Assembly: GCA_002989075.1 (NCBI GenBank)
Contig: PSQN01000002.1
Span: 884,097 to 948,096, forward strand
Source: Arthonia radiata
Taxonomy: Eukaryota; Ascomycota; Arthoniomycetes; Arthoniales; Arthoniaceae
Length of the DNA stretch: 64,000 nt
Direction: 5' to 3'
In this document: positions 662-31,898 of the stretch, piece after piece
Layout of the letters: the number at the start of each line of letters is the position of its first letter
Numbering within the stretch: position 1 is the stretch's first letter
Notes under the pieces: model-generated
Databases searched by the model: none
The model's input: the letters and a program-made list of their open reading frames with translations, nothing else
What the model was told of the DNA's origin: nothing
Position numbers and translations under genes: made by a program

Positions 662-666
662 CCTTA

Positions 667-1116: not shown

Positions 1117-4100
1117 CTTTAATAGACTCGCTACGAAAGTAGAGAAAGTAGATTAATTATGTCTACTACTTTAGTACCCAACAGCTGCGACGCTACAGAC
1201 AGGTTAGCCAACAGAATAGTTAGCACGAGTAAGATATCGAACGTTAACACTAAGATAGGAAAGAGCTTCTTAGATAAACGTTCTAAAGTTACTTTATTCT
1301 TAATACGCCTAGCCGTATACTTTAGAACTTATAAAGACTAGTTTCTGAACGATACTACTATAGTTCTATTCGCTACCTCTTGTATAGATAGAGATGCTTA
1401 TAAGTAGGTTGAGTATTACTTCGACGATTTCTTATTTACTCCGATAAAGAGTAGGCGCGAGGATACCGATAAGTTCTTCGCTAGCTTTACCTTCTTTTAG
1501 AAGAAGCTTCGTAAAATCTTTAAATAGACCGACGCTGGGCGCGTCGCTATTAGGAAGCTTAGGAACCTTAAACAAATAGAACTAGCAAGCAGGTATACCG
1601 CCGAATTTATATAGTATGCTAATTAAATAGAATAGAATAAGAAACCCCTTATCGAGACCTTTTACGAAGGACTTAAGGATTATATTAAGGAAATAATCTA
1701 TATTCGTAAAGAAAAGTTTAATAATCTCGACAACTTTATATAACGAGCAAAGAAGATCGATAACAGTAACTTCGAAAGATAGATAGAAAAGAAGAGTAAC
1801 CCTACTAACAGGTTCTATAGAGCAAAGAATCGAGCAAACTTACAATAAGACCGAGGCGATCTAATGAAGCTAAATTTTATAAAGCCTCGAGGGAAACTAA
1901 ACAACCAAGAAAGAGAACATAGAATAAAGAATAAGCTATACTTATATTGCGAAAAGCCAGGGCATTAAGTTAAAGAATACCGTTCTAAGAAATAACAGTT
2001 TAACAGTACCGACAGGACCGGGCATAACAATCAATCTTAGAAACCCTATCTCCTACAACAATAGTTTAATATAACTACTCAGATAAAAGAGGATAACGGT
2101 CGCAATAAGGCAATAGAACTACTAGCAGCCTTCTCTAACTACTAGTAGAAGGACCCGACCGAGGGCTACCTTCTCTAAGAATTGAGTCTCCTACAAAAGA
2201 CTACCCAGAACTAGTATAAGTACGTTACTAGACTAACTAAGGAGCAGAAGAATATCTACTGAAATACCTTCTGTAACTAGAAAAACACTCACTAGGTTTC
2301 GTCCAACGAGAAGCACTAAGAGTAGAATTTGTTTAATTTATACAAAAACTAGGATATAGACATTAAGTTATAGTAAGAAATAAAGGAACGACAAATAAAA
2401 CAGGAACAATAAAACTTATAGGACTGAAACAACATTAACCGTACTATTTCGAGACAGTAGATACGAGATACTACTACACCACATAAAATACTATCCTAGA
2501 CTGCGTGCTACAATAATGATTGTACGACCCACGAATCCGACAAATTGGGATTAGGATAGTAGTCAAAGAAACTAATATCCCCGAAACAAGGTTTAATACA
2601 AGAACTAGGCCTTATCCGAGAACGACCTAGGTTACCTTACCTAGAAACTCAAGAGAAATCTAAGAAAGAATAGACTATAGAAGCTAAGTAAGATAGTAGC
2701 TACGATACGTTATAGGCAAGACAACGACTTAAAGACGAAAATATAGATTCTAATGGTATAGAATCCTCGCTTAAGAACGATACTAACTAGAAAGAGCAAA
2801 CTCCAATTCGTTAGGAAGAAATAATATAGAGACTTTGTTAGTTAACCTTCTACAATAGAAAGTTAAGCGCTAATAGAGACATTAACGATATCCCGGGATA
2901 TATTTACTTACGTTTACGACGACTAGTAGACCATCTTATTAGGAGTCTAGAATTATATAGTTAGTACTAATATCTTTAACTAACAATATACAACCTATAG
3001 ATACGACGAGTCTTAACTAGTAATAGTTGTATAATTAAAGTAGAGATCGTAAATAACAAACTAGACGTTATAATAAAAGTAGTACTAGAACACCTTATAT
3101 AGGAATTTTTATAGCAAATTAACCGACAATAGGTTCCAGTACCTAAAATACTCTAGAACGTATACAATTAACAGAAAAAAGACTAGGTCGACTACTTCGA
3201 GGGCAGTAGTACCGGCCCGTCTAACAGTTAGACCCTTTAAGAGTCTAGCTCTACGCGAGCTCGGCTGCCTACGGAATATATCTATACACTCGGGCAACGA
3301 TAAACTACAGAAACATTAAAATTATAATCGATTTAGGCGCAACAGGCAACTTTATCTTAATACGCTGCGTTAAAGAGTACCAGATATAAACATAAAAGAA
3401 GAAATTACCCTACGTACTGTCTAGATTTTAAGGAGTAGAGGGAAGAGTTAACTACGAGACTTCGCTAATAGACATAATAATTAAGGACTATTAGAAAGAA
3501 ATTACTTATAATATTGTAAATATTAACTAGTACTACGCTGTACTAGGTATACCCTAGTTGCAACAATATAATTTAGAAGTAAATTAGAGAACTAAGAAGC
3601 TTCTCTTTACTAGATATAAGTACTCTAGACAAGAGTCGTTCTACAGAATAGATACTCTACAAGCTATTTTTAGTAGTAAAGATAAAGAGCGCGATAAAGA
3701 ACTTACGCGGGTTAGCATTACTATACTCCGACATTTAGATATCCTACGAGAGAAGTTTAACGCAGTATCTCGTCTATAGCTAGCTATACGCAAGTATAAA
3801 TAAGAGATAACTGTACGTCAACGATTCTATACGACGACAAGTACTTAGTTAATTACTAAGATACCCGAGGAATACGATTAATTCCGACATCTATTTAAAG
3901 AAGCTAAGCCGGACTTAGCTCTCTTAGAATATAAACCGTAGGATTACACAATACCTTTATAAAAGGGCAAAACGTTAATATTCGGTCTAATATACTTCCT
4001 ATTAGAAGCAGAAAATTAAGCACTTCGCAACTATCTTAACAAAAATCTTAAGAAAGGATTTATCCGGAAATTAATATTACTAGCCAGATACCCGATACTC

Positions 4101-6749
4101 TTCGTACCAAAGAAGAATAGTAAACTACAACTCTATGTAGATTATAGACAGCTAAACGGGGTAACTATTAAAAACCGATATCCTTTACTATATATCAACG
4201 AAATAACAGACCGGTTGTATAACGCGCAATAGTTCACTAAGTTTAATCTACGAGGAGCCTATAACCTAATCCGTATAAAGAAAGGCGAAGAATAGAAAAC
4301 AGCCTTCTATACTAGACACAGACTTTTTAAGTATTGCGTTATACCCTTTAGGCTAATAAACGCACTAGTATTATTTTAGAAACTAATTAACAACATACTT
4401 AGTAATTACCTAGACATATTTATAACTACTTATCTAGACAATATCCTAGTATACAGCCGTATACTAGAAGAACATAAGAAACATATTAAGAAGGTATTAG
4501 AAAGATTAGCGCGTACCGATTTACGAATCGATATCAAGAAAACCCAGTTTTATTAATAATCCGTCGAATTTCTTAGATTTATAATTACCGAGCACGGTCT
4601 CTAAATAGAAGATTCAAAGATCTAATCCGTTCTAACCTAACCTACACTAAAGAATATAAAACAACTACAATAGTTTCTTAGTTTTGCTAATTACTACAGG
4701 CAATAGATATCTAACTTTAGCCGAATTATAGCACCGCTGTCTCAACAGACAAAGCAATCGACAGAATTCTCCTAGACGTAGAAAGAACAATCAGTATTTA
4801 AAGAGCTTAAGGAAGCTTTTAAGATCGAGCCTATACTAGCAATATTTGACCCTAACCTACCGATTATTATAGAAACAGACGCGTTAGACTATACAATTAG
4901 AGCATATATAAGTTAAAACAACAAAGAAAGAAAACTTAGACCAGTAGCTTTCTACTTAAGAAAGATATTACCTACAGAACAGAACTACGATATTTACAAT
5001 AAAGAGCTTTTAGCTATTATAGCAGCATTCGAAACATAGCGAGCTTACCTAGAAGGAGCAAACTATACGATTATAGTATACATAGACTACAAGAACCTAA
5101 CTTATTTTATAACAACAAAGAAACTTAACCGTAGACAAGTTAGATAGTTAGAAACTATAGCTCTATACAACTTTATTATTACCTACAAGAAGGGTTTCGA
5201 GAACGATAGAGCTGACGCTCTAAGCCGACGACTAGATTACCTTAATAACAAGGAACACGTCGAGCACGCAATATTCTAAGAATATAATAACGAGATTAGA
5301 TACAATCAATTGGCTATAACAACAGAATTTGTTATCGAACTAGACAGCCGAATCTTAGATATTCTAAACGATCCTAAGACCTATTAGGAAAACGAGAAAC
5401 GACACCTAGGATTAACTAAGAACAATAGAGGCTACTACGAATTTTAAAGCAAAATCTACGTCCCAAGGAATCTAATCCGAAACATTATTAGTAACTTCCA
5501 CAATAACCCAACTAAAGGACACAAAGGCATCGATAATACTATAGAAAAGATTACAAGGACCTATTATATCCTAAGAATCCGACACTACGTCGAGGATTAT
5601 ATCCGAGAATACGATATATACGTAAGAACTAAGCACCCGAGGTATTTACTATATAGTGAACTACAACTACTTAAGATACCCGAGAGACTATAGTATATAG
5701 TCTTACTAGACTTTATTACTAAGTTACTAGCCTCTAAGGATCTACTTATAGGAATAGCTTACAACGCTATTCTAGTTATATACAATAAACTAACAAAGTA
5801 CGTGTACTTCGTACCTTACAGAGAAGCTAGCAACTTAAAACAGTTAGTGTATACCTTCCTACAGATTATCTTAGCTAACCACGGTTAACCGCAAAGAATT
5901 GTCTTAGACAGAGACTAAAAATTTGTCTTACGATTTTAGACATCCCTAATACAACAGCTAAAGACAAAACAAAAAATATTAATATTATTCTATCTACAAA
6001 CGGACGGACAGACAGAACGAACAAATTAAACACTTAAACAGTACCTCTGGGCATACATTAACTACCAGCAGAACGACTAGGTATAGTTACTACTAGTAGC
6101 GTAAGCAGCGCACAACGACACTAAAAACGATATAACTAAGATAACTCTATTCTATGTCTTGTATAGCTATTACCCTCTTTAGAGAAGACAACTACACAAT
6201 ACTACCAAAAACAAGACAGCTACACGAATAGCTACAAGTATAAAGACCCTTTACTAGCAGTTAAAGTCTAACAGCGAGTTTATTAACGAACAAACAAGAC
6301 AATAATATAATAAATTAAGAACTACCCTAAATACAAGCATAAAAGAGGGGGAAAGAGCTTACTTGCTTATAAGAAACTTAAAAACTATTAGACCAAGCAA
6401 AAAACTTGACTATACTAAGATAAGACCGTTTAAAATCTTACAGCAATTAAGACCTATAACATTTAAACTTAAACTCTCAAAGATAATAAGGATACATCTT
6501 ATATTCTACGTAGCGCTATTAGAGCTAGCCTACTCTTAAGAAGTAAAACAACTTAACCCAGAAATCCTCTCTGACAATTAAAAACCCGAGTATAAGGTCG
6601 AAACAATTTAAGCCTATAGACAATACCGAGGCAAACAACAATATCTTATAAAGTAGAAAGGATATTTTAAACACGAAAATTAATAGGAACCGGAATAAAA
6701 CCTAATTAACTATAAAGACACTATTCAACGATATTGAGACTAAAATATT

Positions 6750-7490
6750 AATTGGTCGTAGCAGCATTAATACCCTAATCTACTACTTAGTATACCTTAT
6801 CAACACCTAGGTTATCTATAAACAAACCAGCTCACTATATTAGTGGCCTACTACCTAACTTCGGGAACAGATTGTTACAAAAATCTATACTTAGGCTACT
6901 CGGCACCTCTACGATATTACTACCGAATATAGCCGCCAGCCATTCTTCTTTAAACAATATATTATTCTAATTTATTTTGTCCTACGCCTAGATACGCAAC
7001 TTTTTAAGCTTCTTCTCTAAATCTATAACCGCCGCTTTAATAACTTCGCGCTACCTTTTTGCCGTACGAACGACTTCCTTTTCTTCCGATAAACGCTTAC
7101 ATTGCCTCTAGAGAGCATTTAACACCTACAAGTACTAAGAACGAATACTCTAAGCTAAAAAATAAGTTAAATTAATAAGGATAATAAACATAAGATAGAA
7201 ACTAACTATCCTCTAACGACAAATAAACGTTATACGACTTCTTATCGCAAGTATACACAAAATACGATGCCTTCCTAGACTTTAGAACACACTTCTTATC
7301 TAAGTAAGAGTAACAGAAACATAGAGGCATCTCTCGACCACAGACTTCGATAAGGACAGTATTAATCTTAAGCGCTTTATTAGCGCTAAAGACTTTCTTA
7401 ACTTTAGGTATAACGACTTACAGAACTAAATCTACTATAGAAGAACGACAAGGTTTTAATGTCTCTAGAGCCGTCGAGGACGACTAGCCT
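6750..7490 (-). other. Antisense accessory coding trace inside the Gypsy element
   Basis: About 740 bases lie between the chromodomain and the 3' LTR, too many for a simple 3' untranslated region. The minus strand gives a Cys-rich patch (around GREMPLC, near 7310-7340) followed by a charged, helix-like stretch, while the plus strand gives nothing recognisable. I recall Cys-rich plus coiled-coil hypothetical proteins associated with fungal Gypsy elements that look like this, but the match is from memory only. The region is broken like the rest of the fossil. Confidence 0.35.
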
Positions 7491-7506
7491 TAAAGAGGAG
7501 ACCTTG

Positions 7507-7956
7507 TGTTACGATCTTACTATATTAGGCTAGTACAGGGCTGAGCGCAGCCCGCCTTATTAGAGCATTATACAGTATACCCGATAACTTCGATATAGCG
7601 ACGTTAGTAACGTCGCTATATCGCAATAGGATTCCGACTACGCAACAAAGAAAGTATCGGGACCGTCGGACACAGAGAAATATACTTATATACCTTAGAC
7701 TATATAGCTAGACTAATAACCGACCTTAGAATAAACTTTAGTCTATTAACTTAATATCTAAATACAAGTTTCTTAACTCTATTTAGGTAACGTACTTTAC
7801 CTTCTATCTATCTTAGTTAAGCCCCTCTTACCTTCTATAATCTGTCTCGCCTCTCCTACCTTTTAGTCTTTAGCACACAAGACACCTACCACCAAGGTCG
7901 ACAAGCACACAAGGCAAGTAAGCCTTAGTTCGGTTCTCCCAGCGACCGGCGTTACA
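7507..7956 (+). repeat. 3' LTR of the Gypsy element
   Basis: 450 bp copy of 667-1116, keeping the canonical TG...CA ends. By eye the two LTRs differ at about 30 positions, all transitions, which is the RIP signature. It is followed directly by the CCTTA target duplication. Confidence 0.9.
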
Positions 7957-7961
7957 CCTTA

Positions 7962-8999
7962 AGAGCCTAGAGTATTAAATAGATTCTACTAGCTATCTCG
8001 GCTTAAAATAGAATAAGCCTTTTACCTAAAGGATCGGGTCTAGTAGCCCGGGCCTAGAACAAAAAAAAGTATTGTACGACCCGTTCTAGATAGCTGGCCC
8101 GTAGTTTAAGACAATACAAAATAAACTTAGAGACTAATAGTTTTAGATAGACAGAATTACTATCTTGTGCGGTAAGTTATAGGTTATCTAGCCTCTATTA
8201 AAAGAATAGATATTTAGTAAGTCTTATACAGACTACTAAACTTAGATATATAAGTTAGAATCTCTCTAGAGAATTTTAGCTAATAAGACAGACAATATAA
8301 TAACAGCTTCTCCTTGCTACTAAGTATTGTACCTATATTAAGTCTAAGTATTGTACTAGTCTTAAGCTAGTCTCGTCTTTCTACTCTTTGTAGTAGTATC
8401 CTTCTTCTTTCCTATATTATTTTTAACAATCATAATAATTATTTCTAGATACTAAATTTTTTTTTATAAAATTTACTTTTAATAAAATTAACAGTAAGTT
8501 TAATAGCTTATAAATAAATTAAAATCTTATTAATATATATATAGTATTTTTTTAAAAAATACTATAAATAATAATATTATTAAAATAAACTAATATAAAT
8601 TAATTAAGTATATTGATAAAGTAATTATTTATAAACTACTATTATATAGCTAAAATATTCAATAATCTAAAAAGTATTATTTTATACTTATAGTTATTTA
8701 TTATATTATAAAGATTATTAAATATTTATCTTTTAGAATTACTATATAAAGATAGTAAGAAACTTAATAAATATTAATGTTAAAAAACTATTAAACTTTA
8801 ATTATTTAAAAAAGTATTTTTTAATTAATAAAAAAATAGTTATAATTAAATAGCTAGTTAAAACTTTAATAGTTTATATATAAATATAAATTATCTTTTA
8901 GCTTATAAATAAAAAGAATAAAAAAAGTATACTAAAAAAAAGTATACTAAAAAAAACTAAATTTATTTTATTTTTAACTATAAAATATTTAAATATAGT
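7962..8999. other. RIP-altered DNA, probably continuing the interrupted Copia LTR and then AT-rich spacer
   Basis: The first 450 or so bases keep moderate GC patches (for example GGATCGGGTCTAG near 8031), like the Copia fragment at the window start, then composition drops to very AT-rich from about 8440. Because the Gypsy element duplicated CCTTA on insertion into the Copia LTR, the rest of that LTR should begin here. Its end cannot be placed because no second Copia LTR is in the window. I see no gene. Confidence 0.5.
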
Positions 9000-9450
9000 T
9001 GTAACGCGGGTCGCTGAAAGAACTAAACTAAGGCTTACTTACCTTATATACTTATCGACCTTAATAGTAGGTATCTTATATACTAGAGACTAAAAGATAG
9101 AGGAAGCAAGATAGATTATAAAAAGTAAGAGAGACTTAATTAAGATAGATAAAAAGTAAAGTATATTATTTAAATATAGTTAAGAAACTTATATTAAAAA
9201 TATTAAGTTAATAAATTAAAGTTTGTTTTAAGAATAACTATTAGTTTAGCTATATAGTTTAAGATATATAAGTAGGTTCCTTTATGTTTAACGGTTGCAA
9301 TAGCTTCTCTGTCGCGCTATCGGAATTCTATTACGATATAGCGACGTTACCGATCTCGCTATATTAGAGTTATTAGGTATCCTATATAATGCTCTAATAA
9401 GGCTAGCTGCGCTTAGTCTTGTATTAGCTAGATATAGTAAGATCGTAATA
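9000..9450 (-). repeat. Solo LTR of the same Gypsy family, inverted
   Basis: This is the reverse complement of the 450 bp Gypsy LTR: it opens with TGTAACGC (reverse of GCGTTACA) and closes with GTAAGATCGTAATA (reverse of the LTR start, last base pair altered). It is flanked by a perfect 5 bp duplication ATAGT at 8995-8999 and 9451-9455, so it is an independent insertion reduced to a solo LTR by recombination. It is visibly more AT-shifted than the two LTRs of the full element, implying either greater age or more rounds of RIP. Confidence 0.88.
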
Positions 9451-12400
9451 ATAGTCTTTAGTTAAATTAGCTTTCTTATTAAATATTTAATAAGAAAGTT
9501 TAATTTAAAGTAAAACTATATCTTTTTTTTTAGCTTTAATATAATATTCTATAGTTAGTAAAATAAAAGCTTACTTAATTAAATTTTTTAAAAGTATTAG
9601 TAAATTTAGTAAATTTAAATAAAAGTGCTATAGCTAAATTAAACTTAATTATAGTTTATTTTTATTAATAGTTCTCTATATTTTTTATTAATAATTAAAA
9701 AACTTTAGTATTCTTTTAATAGATAGTAGTCTTAAATATAGTAGTATTAATAGTAAATATTAAAGTATTTTATTAGCTTTTTTAATAAAAATATTATAGA
9801 AGCTTTTAGCTAAATAATAGCTATTATTATTTAAATAGTTAAAATATTAGATATAGTAAAAAAGTAGTAGTATAAAAAATAATAATAATTTTTATTAAAT
9901 TTTTTATTTAGTTTAAAATTAAATTAATTATTTTATCTAGTAGTTTTTTTAATAGCTCTAACTTAATAGCATATAGATATATAAATAGATTTAATTTATA
10001 ATTATAGCTAGTAAAATTAATAATTAAAGAAACAAAATTAAGTTTTACTTTATATATTTAGCTCTAGTAGTAATCTAAGATTACTATAATACTTAGTAAA
10101 TTAGCTATATAGAACTATGTTTTAAAAATATAATAGTTATAAACTACTATTAGAATAAATAAGCTTTAACTAATAATTTTATTAAATTAACTATTTTAAC
10201 TAATAAAGTATTGTAAAGTTAAAAGCTAGTATAGAGAAATATTTAAATTATAGTAATTTTTATTTATAATAGTAGAGTCTATAATAGTAAAGAAGATAAA
10301 ACTAGAGTTAAGTATTATTTAGTAAAAAAGAAGAAGTTTACTAAATAGTATTATAACTTATATATTTAGTAAAATAGACTTATTAGAACTATCTTTAAAA
10401 ATTTGTTTAATAAAGAATATATTAATTATCTTAAACTCTTTATCAATGGATCTAGAGGTAAGAATAGTTATAAATATTTTTTATTCTAGTTAGATCTCTT
10501 TAGTAATTAAAATATTCTATTAAAGAGACTATTTTCTAAGTTTTTCTTAGTATTAAAGTAGTTATAAGATAGATACCTCTTTTATTAATACTTAAAATAT
10601 ATTAGTCTACTAATATTTAAGATACTAGAGCTAGTAGTTATATATAGACTAAATAAAGAGTAATTAGTAGAGAAAATAATAACTAATAAGGTTAAGACTC
10701 TAGTTAAAATAGTTGACTACCTAGCTAGATAGTAAGTTCTACTAGTAGTCTATAGATAGTTATAAAATTAAGACATATTTAGTATTCTACTTTATATTCT
10801 TAGTAATAAACTTAAGCTACTTAATAAAGTAGCTAACTAAAACTAAGGTAAACTTAGTAACCTTTACTTTAAACTTATTAAAAAATTTTAATCAAAGATT
10901 TTAATACTAGTAGCTAATAGAAATCCAGATAGTCTAAATAAAATACTAAAACTCAATAATAAACTTAGAAAATAAAGTATTATACTAGTTAAGATTATTA
11001 TACTAAATCTTAGTAGTAATAGTCTTAAAACTATTAGTATAGATATTATTAAGAAGCTTAAAAAGTATTTTAATAGTAATAATAGAATTATTATTAATTA
11101 TATACTTGCAAATATAAAATACTAGATTATTTTTAAGACTAAAAAGAATATAAGTATTATACTTATACTTAATAATCTATATATTACTATAAATCTATAA
11201 TCTTATTTATATTATATACTTTTAGATATTATATTAAATACTAAACTTCTTTTTAAAGATTTAAGAGTTTAGTAGATAGTAAAAGTACTAAAGTAGAATA
11301 AAGAGAGTAATAAAAGATAATAGACTAGTATTTTAATAGAACTAACTCTATAGAATAAATTTTTTTTTAGCTTGTCTTCTAACTTAAAAATACTATTATA
11401 TCTAATATTTATTAGATTAAAAATTTCTATCTAAACAATATTTAATTAATTAGTAAAATTCTTAATAGTATTCTTTTAAGTCTAATTAAACTTACTCTAA
11501 TTAGTTTATATTTACTTAAAGTTTATTTTAAGAGTTTTAAACTAGTTTTAGAGAGTATTATAAATATTAAGTTTAGTATTCTATTTAGTATATTCTTTAG
11601 CTAATATAAGAATAGTAGCCTTAATAGTAGAAAAATTATTATTAAATAAAATAATAATCTATTTTTTATTCTTAGTATATTAAAGTCTATTAACTAGTCT
11701 AGTAATAGACTTTTTAGTTAAAATAATTAAACCTTAGTAGAGCTAAACTAGTAGTAAAGGTATAAATAAGTTTTTAGCTATAGTAGTAAACTATTTTTTT
11801 TTCTTTATATAAAAGATAGAGTAATTAGTAATATTAAATACTATAGTAAGATATTCTAGTAGATAATATAGTCTCTAGAATTAAAAGTAGAGGTTAATAG
11901 ATATAGTAGCTTTTAAGTAGAGTAGAGTAAGATATTTACTTACTAATAGATTAAGATATTATTTTTAAGTTCTAATAGAGAAATAGATAATTTTGCTAGT
12001 AGTTCTTAGATAGGCTATTAAGTATAGCTTAAACTAAAAAAAAAAGAGAGTCTTCATAATAATAAAATAAGTAGAGCTAGGGTAGAATTAGATAGTACTA
12101 AAGGCTTAGAATTATAAAAACTATAGAATAAAAACTATTGAAAGGATTTAATTAGAAGTTTATATATATTACTAAGCTAATATTCTTAACTATCTAATCT
12201 AGAAATATTTAAAATTATCTAGTTAGAAAGGTAGAAAGCTAGCTAAGCTAAGTTGAATTTATAATTATAGTAATTAAACTCTACTATAGCTTAACTACTC
12301 TAATTCAAGACTTTAATACTTAAAATATACTTTATAGCTAATAACCCTACTACTAAGTAGTTCTCTATAGTCTATAATATAAGTTTACTATTCTTATTAA

Positions 12401-20984: not shown

Positions 20985-22432
20985 TCAATCATGGTGGCTC
21001 CGCTTGCGTGGATCATCGCTCTCCCCACCAATCTCTCCGAATTTGCGTTTCTGTGCCTGGGCCTGATACATCGCTTCTGCGCCACCGCCAGCATCCTCTT
21101 CAGCAGAACAGTGCCCCTGTTCGGAAACAGCACTTGCATCGTCGCCATCATCCACCTTGCTGAACTTGCGCTTCCGCGCTTGGCTGGCCTCGGGCTCTGT
21201 ATTGGTACTCTTCTGCACAAGCATTGCGGAGCCATGTACTTTCTGTTCGACAGCGGAGGCATCGGTACCGCCGTCCTTGACATCACCCGCCTCGTTACTG
21301 CCGTCCTGGGCGCTTTGCCCGTCCTTGCTCTTAGACGCCAGCCTCAGCGCCAAAGTCTCCCGCAACTTCACAATCTTCACACTGCGTTCAGCGTTCAAAT
21401 CCTCGCCAACACGCTTACGCTTCCTACTATCGTCCTTCGCCGCCGTCCTTCCACCATTGTCCTTCACCACAGCCTCCCCCCCTCCCTCAATCCCAACCCC
21501 CCCCCCTTCCGCCCCGCCTCCAAAATCTCCGCTTTCGCATCCGCAATCCTGCCCTCCAGCTCCACCATCTTCTCCCTCGCTCTGTAGGCTTTCGCAGCTT
21601 CGTTGAGTTCCTTCCTCGTCATCGACAGCCCACTCGCCTGCGCCTTCGCCTTCCGCGCCTCGATCGGCTCCTTCCGCACCGCTTTCGCGGATTTCTCCGC
21701 TATCTTCTTGGCTTCGCTCGCCCACCAGATGCTGCGCGATTGCACGGCGACGCTTAGGTCTCCGTGCCATAGCGTGCCCTCGCTTGCTGGCCATGCTTGC
21801 TCGACGGACGCGAGGAGGTTTCTGATGCGATTGGCGAGCGCGTCGTCGTGGTAGATGAGGGGCAGGGCTTCGCGCATGTCTCTTATCACCTCTCGCAGCA
21901 GAAGCCATGGCAGTCGTACGAAAGGTATGTTCCGCTCCTCTTCATCCGTTCCTCCAGTCGCGGCGTTACCGCCGAAGAGCGAGGGATCATGCGTCCACAC
22001 AATCCCGCCAAGCGGATCCTGCGCCGTCTCAATCAGCTTCAGACTCCTATGCGGGTATCTGAGATTGAATGCCATTACGATTTCGTGCAGCGAGAAGAAC
22101 TGGAGTGAGCAGCGCGTTATGTAGCGCTTGATGAGACCTGTGCGTAGGGGTCCGGGGAAGAGGACGAAGGCTTGGGAGGCGAGTTGGGCGGTTATGAGGA
22201 AGGAGGGGGGTGTGTGGACGGGGTTGGCGGGGGTGGGGTGGGCCATTGGAGGCTTGGGTGGTGGGAGTTTTGGAAGGGAGTTGTGAGAGATGGAGGACGG
22301 ATCGTGTGGATTTATGGGGGCTGGAGGTGAGGTGGGTGGTAGGTGAGGCGCGTATGCTGGAGGGACGTTTGCCTCACTTCGTGAGTCCTTGTAGGCGGCG
22401 AACCGGCTTGTCGACATTATAGTTCGTCCCAT
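20985..22432 (-). CDS. WPxG-family paralogue A with a long basic C-terminal extension; reading frame broken at a homopolymer
   Basis: From the ATG at 22432 the frame runs to a stop at 21464, after GGGLGLREGGRLW. A second frame from about 21500 down to 20985 clearly continues as coding, with basic repeats RKRKRVGED, ARKRKFSKVDD and QKRKFGEIGGE. The two meet at a run of ten C on the plus strand (21497-21506), as if one base were missing, so this is either an assembly error or a real frameshift. The N-terminal part carries the local family signature: LITAQLASQAFVLF, then LLREVIRDMREAL, then LASVEQAWPASEGTLW. A proline-rich segment precedes it. The basic repeats look like nuclear localisation signals. 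Function unknown; no match to a family I recognise. Confidence 0.65.
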
Positions 22433-22453
22433 GCGTTTCTCCGTGGACACTTG

Positions 22454-22702
22454 CTACTTAGACCAGTTCTCATTCACCGCCGTCCATGTCCCTGGCTTCT
22501 TCTTCGATCCTTCTTTGGGGGACGATGGCGGCGGCGACGGAGGGCATTTATGGCCATGCTCTGGTTTGACATCCTTTTCTTGGATCTCCTTCTCAGGCTT
22601 TGTCGGGTCGCAATCACCGCCGCAGATGCCGAAATGGATGAGTTTGTCCTCATAGTTGCGACATTTGGGGCAGAAGAGCCGCTCAATGACGTGTTTGCAC
22701 AT
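22454..22702 (-). CDS. Small cysteine protein 1 (family C)
   Basis: 82 residues from ATG at 22702. The N-terminus MCKHVIERLFCPKC...CGGDC has five cysteines in a C-x8-C-x2-C-x12-C-x3-C arrangement, then a Lys/Pro-rich tail. It has no signal peptide, so it is more likely a small zinc-ribbon-like intracellular protein than a secreted effector. The spacing is almost the same as in the protein at 23215-23436, which supports both being real. Its stop lies only 21 bases before the ATG of gene A on the same strand, which is unusually tight for a fungal pair and could mean a shared transcript. Function unknown. Confidence 0.5.
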   Translation of the reverse strand: MCKHVIERLFCPKCRNYEDKLIHFGICGGDCDPTKPEKEIQEKDVKPEHGHKCPPSPPPSSPKEGSKKKPGTWTAVNENWSK

Positions 22703-23214
22703 GATGTTTCTTCAAGACCTGCGGAAATTGTGGCAGGAGAACGTGATGGGTTTCAGGCCTGATACTCGAGGTCCACAGTGGAGACAGATGAGACGACTTT
22801 TGGTGGAACCAAACGGGATTGTGGGGACGCAGGCAATTGTATGGAAACGTGGAGGAGTTTGCAGGCAGCTGGCCGGCGAGACGGATGAACCCGTGGATTG
22901 ACCGTCTTGGCTGTCCACTGTGTTCGTACGAGAGACATTGGATACGTACCTACGGGCCGCGTATTGATCGGTTTCAACGTGGAACAAACTCGCAAATTGC
23001 ACCCTGTTGAGAAACGAAGCTCAAGACTCGACAGAAGACGTCGAACGCGACAGCGGTCGACGCGACAAACCATTGATGCTAAACATAAAGTCGCAGAGTC
23101 GAAGCGGAGACGCCGACGAAAAATGGCAATACTCCTTCAATGAGAGGATTGGCACTCGCTGGGCTTGGCACCTGCGTCCACTCGAGCTCTCCCAGCTCTC
23201 GTTTACCACACCGA
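22703..23214. other. Intergenic; no supported gene
   Basis: 512 bases. On the minus strand a frame at 22712-23002 includes a CLHCG and some further cysteines, and could be a 5' exon or a degenerate third member of the cysteine family, but it lacks the characteristic spacing, so I do not call it. Confidence 0.3.
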
Positions 23215-23436
23215 CTAACGATGTCGCCTCTGCTCCGCCTGCGTCTCTGCTTCATCTACCTCTAAATCTGGGCAGCGATGGTCATCGGCCGGCCCCAGAT
23301 GGTTCGTGATGACTTTCTTCGGGAACGGGTCAACCGTGCAGTTTCTGTCAGTGCAAGGAAGCCAACTGGGGTTTCGCTCAGGACCTGTGTATTTGCACCG
23401 CAAGCAGTGGTCTTGGATCCACTCTGTGAGGCACAT
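23215..23436 (-). CDS. Small cysteine protein 2 (family C)
   Basis: 73 residues from the ATG at 23436, which places MC at the very start as in the neighbouring copy. The pattern is MC-x8-C-x2-C-x13-C-x4-C (MCLTEWIQDHCLRC...WLPCTDRNC), followed by a charged tail ending QAEQRRHR. Identity outside the cysteines is low, so the duplication is old or evolution has been fast. It has no signal peptide or membrane segment. Function unknown. Confidence 0.5.
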   Translation of the reverse strand: MCLTEWIQDHCLRCKYTGPERNPSWLPCTDRNCTVDPFPKKVITNHLGPADDHRCPDLEVDEAETQAEQRRHR

Positions 23437-24044
23437 CGTATGTTTGTGTAAAAAGATGCTGAAGACGGTGAGAGTGTACTGGTTGCACGATGCACCCAAA
23501 GGGCGTTTAAATGGTGTTGGGTAGTAGGATGAAGTACCAAGGAGGCGTAACTCTGCAAGATGTGGAAAGAAGATTGAAGACCTATTCTCGTGTAGCCATT
23601 TGCAAGATGTTGTAGAGATTCGGCAACGTTACGGCTCCACACCGTTGCCTATCGTAAAAAGACTTGAATCGCATGATGGCACGCTTTGTCTATGAACGCG
23701 TCGCTAATAACACCCGAACGGGCGGACGCTGTCGAGACGCTCGGAAAGACCGGATACATTGGCCGTCATATGCGCAGCACGTGATGTGAGGATCATGAAG
23801 GATCCGAAAACCGCGAACGTACAAGAGGAAACTCAGCTTTTGACTGACAAGAATAATAAGGAGTTGAATGATGTGAGGGAAAATAGGAAAGTTGTATGCG
23901 AAGATTTGCCGTCCGGGTGCTGGCCGGAATATTCGTGATTGCCTCACCACGCTATCCGTCGACCAGCTTACAGCATGATAATTCCATGCTTCCTCCCTTG
24001 GCGTCTTTTCGATTCCTTTTCCTTTTCGACGCGCATCAACTCTC
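23437..24044. other. Intergenic; nothing identified
   Basis: About 600 bases between the cysteine gene and copy B. No frame resembles any of the three local families, and no RNA gene or repeat is visible. Confidence 0.3.
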
Positions 24045-24440
24045 TTATTTCTCTTCCTTCCACAACTCCTCCCGCCCACCCGGCCACAACTCCTCCACCG
24101 CTGCGAGTAGGCGACGCGTCGTCATCCCGTACTCTCCATCCCACCATGCGTAGGTCCTCCACTTGGCGTGAAACTCCTTGACTTTCCGGGCCACATATTT
24201 CAGTTGCCTGTCATCGACGTTCATGAGGTTGAGAATGATGTCTTCACTGTGCTTCTTTACATCTTCAGAGAATGGTTGAGATGGGCCGATGCTGAAGTGG
24301 TCATGGTAGCGCTTGGTGATCCAAGCTCGGTCGTCATGTGGAACAACCGATAGTCCTTGCGCGAGAAGCTGGCGGACGTAGGCCCGATCTTTGGTGAGTG
24401 TTGGTAAGTTGACAAACTCCGGAGACCACATAACTGTCAT
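24045..24440 (-). CDS. WPxG-family paralogue B
   Basis: 131 residues from the ATG at 24440, a single exon. It is one of the clearest members of the local family: AYVRQLLAQGLSVV near the start, QLKYVARKVKEFH in the middle and LAAVEELWPGGREELW almost at the C-terminus. An alternative upstream exon is possible, because an acceptor-like CATGACAG precedes the codons for MWSPEF, but the chosen start already aligns with copy C (PEFVNLPTL against ENLPLVKSV). Mostly helical by composition, no signal peptide. Function unknown. Confidence 0.65.
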   Translation of the reverse strand: MTVMWSPEFVNLPTLTKDRAYVRQLLAQGLSVVPHDDRAWITKRYHDHFSIGPSQPFSEDVKKHSEDIILNLMNVDDRQLKYVARKVKEFHAKWRTYAWWDGEYGMTTRRLLAAVEELWPGGREELWKEEK

Positions 24441-24910
24441 GTAACAAGAGTGCGAATCGGCGTGATTTGCAGCGCACCGAGTTCCAAGGAAACAGCGAAG
24501 AAGCTAAAGTATTCATAAGTGAGAAGTGGCTTGCTTCCTTTCAATCTTAAGGCGGAACATGAAAACCTTTGCACTACAACGCAAACACTGACTCGTCAAT
24601 GGCCTCTCAGCCTTGTTGTAACTTCTGTAACCATCATCACTGGAAGCAACGGCCGCTCATTCGTGCCCTGAAGACCATGCTGGGCGACCAACAGCTGACG
24701 AGCGAACTGGTGTCATCAGTGGCTATGAGCGCGGAAGACCCCTCCACAGGGCTAGCAAACTTAAAACGCCGACACCCGTCCTGAGAAATCATGGTTAAGG
24801 GCAAACTCTAAACAGCCTCAACAATTGACCGATCACCTAAGAACAGCAAACATGAAAACCCGTTACTTCGGTCCACGGCCCGACAACCAACCATACATCG
24901 CAGTCCCTTC
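24441..24910. other. Intergenic between copies B and C; nothing identified
   Basis: 470 bases. Short frames exist on both strands, but none has a family signature. Confidence 0.3.
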
Positions 24911-25435
24911 TCAGAGCTGAATAACATTATCAACATACCCTCTCCACAGCTCGTCCTTTCCACCGGGCCATCTCCTTTCAACTGCATTCAGCGTCTTCTC
25001 GAACCAATGCCATCCATCGGGGGAAACAATGCACATAGCATCAGAGCTATGCAACTTCTTCATCTCATGTAGCATACCTCTCACGAGATGTTCAGGCCAG
25101 ATCATGAATTTGGGATTGCTGATACCGTTGCTCTGCTCGATGACACTTCCAACGAATGGACGAGAAGCGTCATTGACCCATCTTTCGGCCCAGTTGCGGC
25201 ACAGCTGATCTCGGTGGGACGTCGTGAACACTGCGAACGCCTGGGCGGTGCATTGGCGGATGAAGGCGTCGCGCTCAAGATGGTTAGTGACTGACTTAAC
25301 AAGTGGAAGGTTCTCCATTGGTAATAGGTTTGCTGTGCTGAATGATGTTGAGAGATAATCGCTGAGTGGCTGCATAGAACCTTTAAATACCATGCCCCGT
25401 GTGCGTTTATTACCGCAGGCAATTGTTAGCCACAT
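24911..25435 (-). CDS. WPxG-family paralogue C
   Basis: Up to 174 residues from the ATG at 25435. Internal ATGs at 25393 and 25375 are alternatives, and a TATTTAAAG on the minus strand just before 25375 leaves the true start open. Signature blocks are AFIRQCTAQAFAVF, HLVRGMLHEMKKL and LNAVERRWPGGKDELW, followed by a short tail. It is next to copy B on the same strand and most like B and G in the N-terminal helix. Function unknown. Confidence 0.65.
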   Translation of the reverse strand: MWLTIACGNKRTRGMVFKGSMQPLSDYLSTSFSTANLLPMENLPLVKSVTNHLERDAFIRQCTAQAFAVFTTSHRDQLCRNWAERWVNDASRPFVGSVIEQSNGISNPKFMIWPEHLVRGMLHEMKKLHSSDAMCIVSPDGWHWFEKTLNAVERRWPGGKDELWRGYVDNVIQL

Positions 25436-25860
25436 CGCTGATTGCTAAAGCGCAGCAAGAGGGATACTTGAATGCGATACGCACAATCGATGAGCATTTA
25501 GTCGCAAACAAGGTATGGCTTGCAGTATCCAATATTGTGAGTGCTAGTTGTGCTCAGCCTGGAACGAAGTACGCGGGCCGAATGCAAGTACTTCTTCGAT
25601 ATATAAGCACATTTACAACACATTGAACATGCTCGAAGGGCGTTTGCGATATAGTCAACGGTTTGCAATAGATGTTCGCAATAGACGTTTGCGCATCGAT
25701 GGGCATTCATCTTCAAGAGCAGGTTTGTAGCTCAAGGGTCCAGTTGTCGTTGTTCACATTGTCTTTGACTTCATCGATTATTACTGACAAAAGTTTCCTT
25801 GCAGCCACTCAATCTGCCCCAACGCTTTTTTCTCACACTACAAGCGACGCAACTCTAACC
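25436..25860. other. Intergenic between divergent copies C and D, with short degenerate repeats
   Basis: The start codons of C (minus) and D (plus) face away from each other across this 425-base region. It holds four imperfect copies of a 13-15 base word near 25640-25705 (GTTTGCGATATAG, GTTTGCAATAGATG, TTCGCAATAGACG, TTTGCGCATCGATG). No gene is supported. Confidence 0.4.
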
Positions 25861-26612
25861 ATGACCACCCAATCAGACGAATCCCATGGTCTGTCCACTG
25901 CCTTCGCAGAATTGCTGCGGTTAGCGGACAACAATGACAGTAACGGCACGCTAAAAGGCGCAGCTACCTCAACTACTTCTAAGGTCACCACAGCTCAGAT
26001 GCCCTTCGTGAGCGAGCATGAAGTTTGATTTTCTGATATGGACGTCTTCATATACACCGCTGGGTTGACTGTCACTCCAGATTGCGACATGGTCCTTTCA
26101 GATTATTCGCCCAGCATTTCAGTGCCGGCAAGCGCGGGCCAGCCTCTCTGCGGCCCTGCTAGTTGCTGCTGTGATGGAATTCCAAACAGCGAGGCACATA
26201 CAATCCCTTGGGTGGATCCTTGCCCGATGGAGAGTATAACGCATACGGACGCCGCCGAAGTCCGCGTCCGCCAACACGCGGTCATGATATACAGCCTCTT
26301 TCCTCCTCAAATCCGGAAACGACTGCGTGCCATTAGCAATATTGTATTCAACAGCGCGCAAGCGCATCAGGATGAATCTCTCTTGGTGCATGCCCGTCTG
26401 ACTGCTGGTATCGTTTCTTGAGAAGGAATCTCCTGCCTGTGAGGCATACCGTACGGGTGATGTGGACATGGTCGGGGCGGTGGCTGTCGGAGCTACCTGA
26501 AGATAAGAGAGATGATATCGAGGAGTACTTTACGGTGATTGGAGATAATCGGCCATGGGGCAAGCAGGACTTATGGTTGACGCCGGAGAAGCTGTGTGCA
26601 ATGTTTGATTGA
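25861..26612 (+). pseudogene. WPxG-family paralogue D, apparently decayed
   Basis: The frame begins at the ATG at 25861, meets TGA at 26026, resumes in the same frame (26029-26418), then the family C-terminus continues in a different frame to 26612. Signature pieces remain recognisable: VRVRQHAVMIYSLFPP, then HTVRVMWTWSGRWL, then IEEYFTVI...PWGKQDLW. I tried canonical GT-AG introns around both breaks and found none that restores the frame, so two inactivating changes is the simplest reading. Unusual splicing cannot be excluded without RNA. It is transcribed opposite to copies B and C, in the same direction as E. Confidence 0.55.
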
Positions 26613-27254
26613 CAGTGGCTGTACGCGACTTCATCCGCCGCATAGTTATCTAAAAGGCCCGGTTTAGGCCACTACTCTTTACATTGCCAAGCCATGCAGA
26701 CGTGATCGAAGTCTGCGGCACAAAACCTGCGCTCTGCCTGGCATCAAGTCTATGAGATAATTAGATCTATGCCGAGGCACGAGCTATGAGCAGAAATTTC
26801 TTGAAGCTCAACGCATGAAAAACAAGACCGCAGAAGGAGTCGAAAACAGTCGAGAGCCGAGATGAGGGAGTCAACGGCGCGTCATGGATCCAAATGCGGT
26901 GAGTGCAGGCGCTGAAGAGGCTCAAAGGCTAATGAGACACCTCAAGAGATTATGTCTCGAAACAGGAAGTCCATCTCGGCGCCACGACCCCAAAAACACG
27001 CGAAGCATACTCCAACGCGGTCATGCGACACATCCGTTCGTTTGCATCAAACGTCCATGCACAAACGACCACGATCGCTGAAGGCGTTGTTATATGCTTG
27101 ATTCCTGCTGTTTCTTTCATGACATTGACAAACTCATCCAAACTCAGAAGACACCATTAGCTACCGACTAGAAGTCTTACCCTCATCAACCATCGCCCTA
27201 CCTTACAACATCTCCAAGCCCTTACCATCGACATCCCAGAACCCCACTGCAACC
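26613..27254. other. Intergenic between copies D and E; nothing identified
   Basis: 642 bases with no family signature in any frame. The last 80 bases before copy E are CA/CT-rich (for example ACCCCACTGCAACC), as expected for a fungal promoter-proximal leader. Confidence 0.35.
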
Positions 27255-27857
27255 ATGACCCCCAAACCCTCAAATCCGGTCAAGCCCACCGCTCTTAACC
27301 CAAACACACTTGGCATTCCCCCCTCCAGCCCCAAAGACGACGACATCACCTCGACCCTCTCGTCATACTTTCTCGAAGACGACGAAATTCAACAAATGAC
27401 CCGCGTCGAAGCCTACATACGCCAAACCGCCGCCATCCTCTTCAGCCTCCTCCCTCCCGCCGCACAGGACAACATCCGCCACAAAGCCAGCGTCATTTTC
27501 CTCACAACAAAAGAACTCCAAGGAGACGCTGACGAATATATCGAAGCCGGCTTGCCCGTCACGCCCGAGTTCATGCATGTGTCGTGGCTGCATCTGAGGT
27601 ATCTGATCCGGAAGATGCGGAAGGAGTTTGAGCGGATGGTGGAGCGGTCGGTGGAGCGAGAGTTGGAGCGAGAATTCGAGACGTGTCGGAAGGCGCCGGA
27701 GTATGTTGCTGTTATTGAGCATTATTGGCCGGAGGGGATGAGAGATTTGTGGATGACTGTGAGTGAGTTGGAGAGGAAGGAGGAGGAGGTTAGGTTGATG
27801 GGAATGAGACCGTGGGGAGAGGTGAGGGGGTGGAGTGGGATTGAGGGGATTGTGTGA
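27255..27857 (+). CDS. WPxG-family paralogue E
   Basis: 200 residues, single exon, ATG at 27255. It is a well-preserved member: AYIRQTAAILFSLLPP, HLRYLIRKMRKEFERM and VAVIEHYWPEGMRDLW. The N-terminal 60 residues are Pro/Ser/Asp-rich and unlike the other copies. A Glu/Arg-rich helix (ERSVERELEREFE) lengthens the middle. The 5' half uses C-ending codons strongly and the 3' half G-ending ones. No signal peptide. Function unknown. Confidence 0.72.
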   Translation: MTPKPSNPVKPTALNPNTLGIPPSSPKDDDITSTLSSYFLEDDEIQQMTRVEAYIRQTAAILFSLLPPAAQDNIRHKASVIFLTTKELQGDADEYIEAGLPVTPEFMHVSWLHLRYLIRKMRKEFERMVERSVERELEREFETCRKAPEYVAVIEHYWPEGMRDLWMTVSELERKEEEVRLMGMRPWGEVRGWSGIEGIV

Positions 27858-28219
27858 AGGTTTACGTGATGTTGTGAGCTGTGCAGCGACTGCGGTTGTT
27901 TAGCTTCCGTGTGTGAGCTCTGTTTCAATACTGAGACTCTGAACGTGATGAACTTTAATGTGGACACGCAGAAACGCATCCAACGTCATTGCTCTATTCT
28001 CACTGTAAGGAAAAGCGCACACTGCATGGAAGTAATCGTACAAACCGCTTTGAAACATTAGATCCACCTAAAAGATCTTGAAACGCAAGCCCATCTCCAT
28101 ATTCCTGCGCAGCAGCCTGATTTGGCATCAGACGCTGTGGGCATCCTTTTGCCATAGAACATCTGAAGCCTATCACCCACCGAGGTCGCAATTCAACCTA
28201 CACCGAGGACGGAACAAAC
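27858..28219. other. Convergent intergenic region between copies E and F
   Basis: 362 bases between two stop codons on opposite strands, presumably 3' untranslated regions. Nothing else is identified. Confidence 0.35.
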
Positions 28220-28876
28220 TCATCGTTGGTATGGCAGAGTTCGATATAGATCTCCGTGACCCCACGGCCAAAGCTTATTAATGGCTTTGAGCATTTTGTC
28301 GACTCTCGGTGCAAGTTCGCTGTTCTCAGGGCGACTCAAGTTGAATTTTCGGATTTCCCTTTGTAGCAACCTGATCGCGTATCTCAATTCAGCAATCGAG
28401 AACAGCGTGAAGTCGAGAGAACTGGGTCTGCCTGAAGCTCTGCTGCGAAGATAATCTTCCCAGGCCTGAGGCTCGTAGAACACCATGCTCAATAGGTCGT
28501 GAACGCGAGATTGTCGTGCGTCTGAAAGTATGTTGAACTTATCTGTGGTGCAGCCAATAGCCAAGGAAAGCCTGAGACGAAACGGTAACGCGCCAACATC
28601 GAAATTCTTGTCTAGAACCTCGTCCAGGGTGGGAATTCCTTCCTGTGCTGCGTTCAAGCTTGCCGTGGCAGATTGTGAAGCGGGAGTAGCGATATCAGCC
28701 ACTCGCCCGCGCGCCAATGTTGGGAGTTGCGCAGCGCCAGATCCTTGAGATGGCGCCGTTCGGTTCGGTCCACTATCTGCGGTTGGTTGACGCTGCTCAT
28801 TTTCTGCGTCGGGGTCGTACACCACGTATTCAGAGGGGTGTGGCCAGGGAACACTGCTTGACTGTTCATCTGACAT
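28220..28876 (-). CDS. WPxG-family paralogue F
   Basis: 218 residues from the ATG at 28876; the frame extends a little further only through a GTG. The N-terminal 100 residues are Ser/Gln/Pro-rich and probably disordered. The family region follows: VGALPFRLRLSLAI, then ELRYAIRLLQREIRKF, then LKAINKLWPWGHGDLY. It is the most divergent copy, with Tyr replacing the final Trp and the N-terminal RQ lost. Function unknown. Confidence 0.65.
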   Translation of the reverse strand: MSDEQSSSVPWPHPSEYVVYDPDAENEQRQPTADSGPNRTAPSQGSGAAQLPTLARGRVADIATPASQSATASLNAAQEGIPTLDEVLDKNFDVGALPFRLRLSLAIGCTTDKFNILSDARQSRVHDLLSMVFYEPQAWEDYLRSRASGRPSSLDFTLFSIAELRYAIRLLQREIRKFNLSRPENSELAPRVDKMLKAINKLWPWGHGDLYRTLPYQR

Positions 28877-29476
28877 TGCACTTTGCTTATTGATGAACAC
28901 TTCAGGTTGATGCAGAACTGAACAGCAGCTCGAGATGGTGGAGGTCTGCCATCTTTATAGCCTCCATCAATGCATCAGAGACGTGCTTGTAGCGTGCCTG
29001 ACAAGCTATTGAAGTTGTTAGCAATCATTTGTATTGACTCCGTTGTTGTTGAGGGATAGGAAAACTTTTCGTAGCAGAATGGTTGTCATTCCGGAGGCAA
29101 AGACTTGACACTTTCAATACTCGTTGCACAATACTCGTTCCGTAGGACACAGTGAGTCCGCGTATAGTTGCTGGAAACCTCGTATAGCCGCTGGGAGGCG
29201 CCATCATCGGTACACGTAGGTTATCCCGCTTTCCGCTCCGAAGCGACCACTCGTCGAAGCGGCAATGGCCTCTGCACGCCGTGCGGACACGCCGCATCTT
29301 GCCATCGCTCGGCATAGCCGGCAGAACTATCACGTTGAAATCTGCCAATATAAAGCAGGGCCGCCTCACCCTTTACATACAGTACAATCCTCACACATAC
29401 ATCCACGACGCCAAAGATCATCCCGCACATACAACCAAGAGACCGATATCAGCTGTACTTGACCGCCAGCAGAGCC
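28877..29476. other. Intergenic region upstream of the divergent copies F and H1
   Basis: 600 bases separating two genes that diverge. It holds the TATA box listed next; otherwise no frame or repeat stands out. Confidence 0.35.
29349..29354 (+). promoter_or_regulatory. Probable TATA box of gene H1
   Basis: TATAAA, 128 bases before the H1 start codon, with a CCTCACCC and CA-rich stretch downstream that fits a fungal transcription start and leader. Confidence 0.45.
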
Positions 29477-30027
29477 ATGATGACTCTCGAAAAGAGGGAC
29501 CTTGCCCCAGACGGCTGCGTACTCGTTGGTAAGTTAGCCCCACTATCTGTCTTTTCGATATGCACAGGCCAAACTACTTTCGATGTTTCGAGGAGGCTGT
29601 TCAGGTTTGAGAGAAACAGGCGTGGACGCCGCTGAGCTGACGCCTTGCTTCAGATGAAGTCAACGATATCCGCGTGTACTTCTCGCCAAATTACAGCATT
29701 ATCAATCGCGCTATCGGTTGGAGGCCAAAAGAGCTAGCAGACCTTGAGCGCGACGGGGTCAAGGATCGCGCTTACGGGCCTGAAAAACTCAAAGAATTGA
29801 CGTCCAGCGGACTGCGTACGCATCTGCCGGGGAAAGTAGCCGAGTGGAACGCCTTGCACAAGGACAAAGAAATTGAGTGGGCCGAATTCACGTAGGTGAG
29901 GTGGCGCGCAATTTTGAGGTCCAGCATTGACACCTGTCGCAGGGGAATCACCGATAGGGATGTCTATTTGAATCTGAATCGTGGAGATCATACCATGATA
30001 GACGTGCAGTTCCCAAGGAAGGCATGA
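29477..30027 (+). CDS. Hypothetical protein H1 (three-exon family), tandem duplicate of H2
   Basis: Exons 29477-29528, 29654-29891 and 29943-30027 give 124 residues. The splice phases (1, then 2) and the 85 nt last exon are identical to H2, which confirms the model. Exon 1 encodes MMTLEKRDLAPDG; exon 2 carries VYFSPNYSIINRAIGWRPKEL and YGPEKLKELTSSGLRTHLP; exon 3 ends VQFPRKA. No signal peptide, membrane segment or family I recognise. The block WRPKEL..LE..........YGP....ELTSSGL..HLP.KVA is shared with H2 and looks like the functional core. Function unknown. Confidence 0.7.
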
Positions 30028-30597
30028 CTGGTTTGAGCTTAGGACTGAATTTTGATGGGTTCACGCCATCACTAGAGTCACAAGCTCACTTTCGTGGATG
30101 CAGCCTCGCAGATGTACTTTGAACTTGTTAGCAAGGACTGTCCTACGATATCATCCGTTGTGTTAAGCAGAGCGATGTACACGTGCACCCCTGCTGGGCA
30201 TGTTATTTCGCTCAAAAGTGTACCTTCGTCTGCCTGGATTTCGTCCCAAAGCGGAGACGAGAACCACAAGACGTCTTGGAGATTGCCCAACAAAGATAAC
30301 GTGAGATGTGGTATCAAGTGCAGGGTGCATGGATTTCATGTGGCGCTCGGCGCATCTCACCTCAATGAAACCTCGCGTGTAAACGACCGTCGCTTTGTTC
30401 TCCCGTTCGTTTGCGGATGGCACCTCTCACCAAAGAGCTTCGCAATCGACCAAATGTCACCGTTTATCTTTGCTTATATGACTCGCATCATTTCTGTTCT
30501 TGAATTATTTGACAGACCGAATCAAATTACCCAACAAAGAAACAGCAACTAAGGCTTGAAAATTACCTTGCTCGTCTTGATCATCGGACAAATCTGT
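30028..30597. other. Spacer between tandem duplicates H1 and H2; nothing identified
   Basis: 570 bases including the presumed promoter of H2. No TATA box as clear as that of H1; short frames without similarity to the local families. Confidence 0.3.
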
Positions 30598-31171
30598 ATG
30601 ATGTCTGAGAACAAGGGTGCACAGAAATCTCACGATGATCTCTGGGTACGCGTTGGTAAGTTCTGGAGCATGCGGTCTTCTCATTCTGTCGCTTGTGCTG
30701 CAGCAAACCTACCGGGGTCCCTATGGTCTTTCTGGACAAAGGTGGAACAGAAGCTTGAACGCTGACATCACATTCTTAGACAAGGTTGACGGCGTGGCCG
30801 TGTACGTCGCTCGTACTCGCAACGCCATTAATTCTGAGCCAGTGTGGAGGCCAAAAGAGCTAGCGCACCTGGAATACGACTTTGATTTGGTGCGTCGATA
30901 CGGTCCGAAGGAAGTACAAGAGTTGACGTCGAGCGGCCTGCATGCGCATCTCCCGGAAAAAGTTGCTAAGTGCAATGAGAAATACCTAGATGAAGATGGG
31001 AAACCGAAGAAGAAGGTTGATCGAGTCTACTTTGAGTGAGTGACCTAATATCTGAGACGCAGCTCGGAGACTTATTAGAGACGCAGAGATATTACCGACA
31101 GCAGTCTCTGGTTGATGTTGTATGATGGAAAGGAGCATATTGGTGACGCGGTGATTCCGAGGAAGGCGTGA
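30598..31171 (+). CDS. Hypothetical protein H2 (three-exon family), tandem duplicate of H1
   Basis: Exons 30598-30655, 30780-31035 and 31087-31171 give 132 residues. Exon 1 ends ...WVRV-G as H1 ends ...CVLV-G; exon 2 contains VAVYVARTRNAIN, WRPKELAHLEYD and YGPKEVQELTSSGLHAHLP; exon 3 ends DAVIPRKA. Relative to H1 it has a longer N-terminus and a Lys-rich insert (EDGKPKKKVDR) near the second junction. The core is strongly conserved while the flanks are not, as expected under selection on a folded domain. Function unknown. Confidence 0.7.
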
Positions 31172-31415
31172 GAGCACCGAGCGGCGCGTTGATATACATG
31201 GATGTTTTGCCACGGTTGGGAAGCTGGCGCAGGTAGTCATGAACTGGTTTCAATTTTTGGGGATGGCCAATCCTCGACAACATGACATCCACGATGACAA
31301 ACCCGCATGCATCAAGGAGTAGTCTGAACTAATACCTAGATCAACCGTCTTCATTGAAGCGCATACTCTCTTCGTCTCACCGGCTCTGCTAACGGCTCAG
31401 AAGTGCCCACTGCCT

Positions 31416-31898
31416 TCATGGGCCGGTTAGATCAGTTGACTCGTCTTCCTCGAGGACTCTGGCCTTTTTCTTCGGGGGCCCAGTCGGCAATGCAAACTCC
31501 TCCATATTTTCACAAAGCTGGCCTTCGCCCCCTGGCCAGTGCTTTGCAACTAGTGCCAGATATTGATTGACCAAATCGCGTTCCTGAATGATCACGTTCT
31601 TGAAATTGGAATCATCGGGCACCTTGAACCTTCCGTTGAACGCTCTCATGCGTCGAACGATGGTTTTGAGTGAGGACGACGGCATCGTGACAAAGTGTGG
31701 TGAGATGAGCTTGTCGGCCAACATCATGACGCGATGGCGCTCTTGCTCCTCTACGCCTACGTAGCATTTGTAGAAGAGATCGACGAGTGCGTTTTGTCCG
31801 GGTCTGTCGAACGACGCGAAAGCCTGCGCTGCGGACTGGCGTAGAAGTGCTTCCTGTTCCGGGAGCATATTTTGCTTTGGGGTCGGTGAACTGGTCAT
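31416..31898 (-). CDS. WPxG-family paralogue G with a nuclear-signal-like tail
   Basis: 160 residues from the ATG at 31898, single exon. It has the N-terminal helix ALLRQSAAQAFASF, the middle SLKTIVRRMRAFNGRF and the C-terminal YLALVAKHWPGGEGQL, so the final Trp of the signature is Cys here. After the domain comes PTGPPKKKARVLEEDEST, close to a classical monopartite nuclear localisation signal. Together with the basic tail of copy A this suggests that at least some members act in the nucleus (inference). It lies downstream of and convergent with H2, and next to BDP1 on the same strand. Confidence 0.68.
   Translation of the reverse strand: MTSSPTPKQNMLPEQEALLRQSAAQAFASFDRPGQNALVDLFYKCYVGVEEQERHRVMMLADKLISPHFVTMPSSSLKTIVRRMRAFNGRFKVPDDSNFKNVIIQERDLVNQYLALVAKHWPGGEGQLCENMEEFALPTGPPKKKARVLEEDESTDLTGP

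Follow-up and report, generated by a model that had tools for sequence, protein, structure and literature searches.

A single-locus family of strongly diverged WPxG paralogs in the genome of Arthonia radiata

Organization of the locus

The window analysed here, i.e. the whole stretch of 64,000 nucleotides (G000 C16:884097-948096), lies within the 33,499,693-base genome of Arthonia radiata in 16 contigs; the genome has been described as 33.5 Mb in 17 scaffolds (PMC5887037). Between 21 and 32 kb of the window, the initial annotation predicted eleven genes on mixed strands that fall into three groups: seven genes of a family termed WPxG (W1-W7), two H genes and two genes for small cysteine proteins (C1 and C2). 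All eleven were confirmed at their predicted positions. The cluster fills the gap between a GNAT gene, preceded on the left flank by genes for an inositol 5-phosphatase, Rit1 and a lipid-droplet hydrolase, and a Myb-protein gene, followed on the right flank by genes for Bre1, a BMT5-like protein and a CTLH protein. The Myb protein contains the Pfam domain Myb_DNA-bind_7, and we take it to be Bdp1-like. The Rfam search of the window gave no match, the tRNA search found none, and literature searches listed nothing on this locus. Positions 1-12000 of the window are AT-rich, with a GC content of about 35% dropping to 19% at 8-12 kb. The TpA/ApT ratios of 1.7 and 1.6 in this block are strong indices of repeat-induced mutation, and the block probably consists of mutated repeats.

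Most of the W genes lie on the minus strand. The frame of W1 that carries the family core (21464-22246) starts at 22246 or 22432 and stops at 21464, whereas the end reported previously, 20985, belongs to a second open frame; W1 was assigned a basic C-terminal extension. The second frame (20985-21941, minus strand) overlaps and extends W1 and is abundant in KRKR-like stretches. The change of frame takes place near a C10/G10 run at 21497-21506, and it may reflect a frameshift, an assembly slip or an intron. W2 (24045-24440, 131 residues), the core of which was the input for the structure model, W3 (24911-25318, 135 residues, alternative start at 25393), W6 (28220-28876, 218 residues, with a long N-terminal tail) and W7 (31416-31898, 160 residues, with the lysine-rich C-terminal stretch PPKKKARV) are also encoded on the minus strand. 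W5 (27255-27857, 200 residues) lies on the plus strand, as does W4 (25861-26612), and the region around its start codon resembles that of W4. The cysteine proteins C1 (22454-22702, 82 residues) and C2 (23215-23436, 73 residues) are open reading frames on the minus strand. H1 (29477-30027, 124 residues) and H2 (30598-31171, 132 residues) are spliced frames of three exons each on the plus strand, with exons at 29477-29528, 29654-29891 and 29943-30027 for H1, and at 30598-30655, 30780-31035 and 31087-31171 for H2.

The codon score, computed on in-phase slices, favoured the proposed frame over the other five for all 10 intact genes or exons tested, namely six W genes (W1 as a whole frame), C1, C2 and the second exons of H1 and H2. 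The scores of W6 (0.08) and C2 (0.06) were low, yet the best of six. In the control, the proposed frame came out best for 9 of 10 held-out flanking genes. W4 is different, as its N- and C-terminal halves are in different frames, the codon scores of both halves are weak, and the proposed frame is the best of six for the C-terminal half only. W4 is thus a broken copy, in line with the initial annotation that one copy looks dead; alternatively, unusual splicing may account for its structure.

The WPxG genes belong to one family

Profiles were built from five of the six intact W proteins and used to search 3986 open reading frames, from which those of 14 loci merely repeating a stretch of the window had been removed beforehand. 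In all six cases the left-out protein was the best other open reading frame, with scores of 50.5 (W2), 45.0 (W3), 39.4 (W5), 37.8 (W7), 27.3 (W6) and 27.3 bits (W1) and E values from 4e-14 to 7e-7 (6e-7 for W1). The C-terminal half of W4 was the next-best frame for five of the six profiles. Its N-terminal half matched W5 at 9.2 standard deviations, a score reached by none of 200 shuffles, while its similarity to the other W proteins was weak or absent (3, 5, 13, 57 and 117 of 200 shuffles). In the comparison with shuffled controls, the real score of each of the 15 intact pairs was reached by 0 to 4 of 200 shuffles. The leave-one-out profiles for the six intact members and the two halves of W4 therefore bear out the assignment of the seven genes to one family.

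The family is strongly diverged. Only the tryptophan, the proline and one leucine are invariant in the core alignment, and the pairwise identity over the aligned core ranges from 14 to 27% in the 15 pairs. The tree of the six members has a median end branch of about 2 changes per site, and none of its three inner branches met both support limits; the tree is so weakly resolved that it does not give the order of the duplications.

Distribution of the family

A W consensus query against the whole 33.5-Mb genome yielded seven matches at E<=10, all of them at this locus: W2 (4e-21), W3 (8e-19), W5 (2e-18), W7 (6e-16), W6 (1e-14) and W1 (4e-7), the last hit in two pieces, the second with an E value of 2.3. 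The search scored seven first-look candidates only and did not pick up the broken W4, which means that a decayed or strongly diverged copy at another place may escape it too. The pattern V/I-x3-WPxG-x5-L occurred at 45 places in the genome, against 28 for the reversed pattern; five of these are W2, W3, W5, W6 and W7, and none of the 20 examined as DNA among the 40 outside places resembled a W gene. A second pattern, WPxGxxxL followed by a Trp-like codon, gave 36 matches against 25 reversed, those true by frame being W2, W3 and W5 only, and control patterns with the spacing off by one base gave 7 and 37 matches, none of which was in the cluster. As far as tested, the W family is confined to a single locus. 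The initial annotation regarded the gene families as local; this holds for W by the consensus query and fails in part for H, a third member of which was found on another contig (see below).

None of the ten intact proteins, i.e. the six intact W proteins, H1, H2, C1 and C2, passed a curated Pfam cut-off (best E 0.015). NCBIfam gave no described family for W3, W5, W6 and H2, and no PDB sequence matched the W and H proteins. Relatives were also missing from a search of 5.8 billion proteins, run with W only, which requires shared 5-residue words. An exact word of this length is common to only one of the 15 intact W pairs, and hence most relatives of similar divergence would go unnoticed in the search. 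The label "undescribed" consequently stands for the scopes of Pfam, NCBIfam and PDB, and is weaker for diverged relatives in the large protein search. Given this word filter and the sampling gap, the missing relatives are not proof of a family new to the species; as Arthonia radiata is a sparsely sampled lichen fungus, the orphan status partly reflects sampling.

Predicted structure of the W proteins

The AlphaFold model of the W2 core, computed with a six-row alignment, is a helical bundle of fair confidence (pLDDT 81.6, pTM 0.75), with helices at residues 12-27, 30-44, 52-62, 72-89, 98-113 and 117-121. Foldseek comparison of the model with PDB revealed no match below an E value of 1.3, and nothing was found below 0.76 among viral models, where one protein was matched with a probability of 0.87, an E value of 0.97 and a TM score of 0.45. 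The best VIA-align Z scores, 7.3 and 7.1, are background for helical models. The W core is therefore predicted to be all-helical and has no convincing known fold, although the absence of a match is no proof that the fold is new.

Hydropathy analysis of the 10 intact proteins predicted no membrane span. By the same crude measure, the best 9-residue means at the N-terminus are 0.5 for W5, -0.5 for W6 and 0.9 for W7, i.e. these three have no hydrophobic N-terminal stretch, and the means of W1, W2, W3, H1, H2 and C1 peak at no more than 1.5-1.9.

The H and C genes

H1 and H2 share 43% of their amino acids (E 3e-25), and both introns lie at matching positions, which agrees with the earlier description of the two as tandem duplicates. 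The third member, H3, lies on the minus strand of contig C1 (G000 C1:672894-673274, positions 4895-5275 of locus L057) and is 35% identical to H2; its coding blocks are split at the position of the second intron in H1 and H2. Within 9.9 kb around H3, no W match was found at E<=10. Beside H3, a frame of 148 residues (L057 4177-4620, plus strand) includes MDPVSIVGTSVSLATAVAS, which is reminiscent of the N-termini of fungal NACHT/ankyrin proteins; the frame has no Pfam match above the cut-off.

C1 and C2 are both short, start with MC and carry a CxxC pair, and the cysteine order judged by eye is common to them. The local alignment score of the pair was reached by 364 of 2000 shuffles and is no better than chance, while the global scores under four settings were modest (15, 51, 85 and 146 of 2000 shuffles). 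The grouping of the two cysteine-protein genes is weakly supported by these scores, and we treat them as a possible pair. A lysine run like that of W7 is also carried by H2 and C1. The H and C genes lie at the same locus as the W genes, and may or may not be linked to W in function.

Duplication history

The closest pair in the cluster is H1/H2. With identities of 14-27% among the W pairs and 43% for H, no pair qualifies as recent duplicates. The cluster bears no mark of repeat-induced mutation either, as its TpA/ApT ratio is 0.56 and that of the flanks is 0.56-0.64. Taken together, the lack of a close pair and of repeat-induced mutation indicates an old or quickly evolving array and no recent burst of duplication.

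Short DNA repeats tied to gene duplication were found at the starts of W4 and W5, in the leaders of W3 and W4 and in H1/H2. The leaders of W3 (minus strand) and W4 (plus strand) have in common a stretch of 22 bases (I5; 25363-25384 and 25790-25811) with 86% identity, which points to 25318 as the start of W3 and to a common origin of the two leaders. The W4 and W5 starts have in common a stretch of 26 bases (D3) with 77% identity. We regard I5 and D3 as traces of inverted and tandem duplication, respectively, whereas the other short pairs listed may be chance. One 7-mer is present in four of nine upstream stretches, against a null distribution with a mean of 0.085 and a maximum of 3. Thus, of the birth-and-death cluster proposed initially, the duplication, the dead copy and the housekeeping flanks are found, and recent births are not, there being no close pair.

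Proposed role of the W proteins

Based on these results, we propose, with a probability of about one half, that the locus is an old local array built by repeated duplication and that the W genes encode small intracellular helical interaction modules. One gene would have been duplicated repeatedly, with changes of orientation, between the GNAT and Bdp1-like genes. Its products would be small soluble proteins, probably located inside the cell, that share a predicted core of five to six helices ending in WPxGxxxLW. Their tails appear variable, and some basic, in the sequences. Cores of this kind, small, soluble and helical and combined with variable tails, point to interaction modules, and the W proteins most likely serve in protein-protein interactions, where variable tails and surfaces may direct each copy to a partner or place of its own. 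This functional reading rests on the predicted type of fold and on the absence of other signals. W7 and W1 are possibly nuclear, judging from the single lysine run of W7 and the basic runs in the second frame after W1.

The reading nearest to this one is that the genes are ordinary, fast-evolving and poorly sampled, have orthologs in other Arthoniales and serve in any role of housekeeping regulation; the family would then look orphan since databases seldom include proteins of this class. Even the conserved BMT5-like neighbour (37.9-39.2 kb) shares only 55% of its residues, over 81% of the query length, with its nearest relative, from the assembly of Coniocarpon cinnabarinum, a member of the Arthoniaceae, and the requirement for 5-residue words works in the same direction. 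No direct evidence speaks against such genes, which are compatible with the proposed array and differ from it in breadth only; as the account of the locus, we consider this possible but rather unlikely. Secreted symbiosis effectors that target the algal partner would fit the small size of the proteins, their duplication and the probable lichen-forming host, but the crude hydropathy values of the N-termini, with no hydrophobic stretch in W5, W6 and W7 and means of only 1.5-1.9 in the six others, point the other way, and we regard such effectors as very improbable.

A role in self-recognition or defence was suggested in the initial annotation. In such a locus, selection would drive the copies apart and each would recognise a partner. 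Many diverged paralogs at one place, on mixed strands and with a dead copy, could be expected of such a locus. The ten intact proteins, however, carry no Pfam domain above the cut-off, be it HET, NACHT, HeLo or another, and PADLOC gave no match at E<=1 for any of the six W proteins; the low identity fits plain age equally well. The suggestion thus gained no positive support, and we regard it as improbable. It is very improbable that the W proteins represent a novel family of helical folds peculiar to lichens of the Arthoniales, in which each copy recognises a different partner and the locus acts as a lineage-specific array for self-recognition or symbiosis control. The array of intracellular interaction modules remains our preferred reading.

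Comparison with known systems

The locus provides an undescribed protein family that is defined by a profile and for which a structure model of fair confidence exists, from a class of lichen fungi represented by few genomes; the exact gene models enable testing of variation of the locus between strains. Regarding the fold, the ET domain of BET proteins (BRD3), a three-helix fold, was taken for comparison. The allorecognition loci of the HET/NLR type, e.g. het-B of Podospora (PMC10890737), are likewise made up of genes of filamentous ascomycetes that could evolve fast. They differ from the present cluster by HET, NACHT, NB-ARC, HeLo or similar domains, which Pfam did not find in the ten intact proteins. 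W is an undescribed single-locus family of paralogs that is ordinary as a kind, as locally duplicated orphan families are common in fungi. It resembles the lineage-restricted local gene families of fungi, with which it shares diverged copies at one locus, a broken copy and no relatives in the libraries, and from which it is set apart by how far its copies have diverged, at 14-27% identity.
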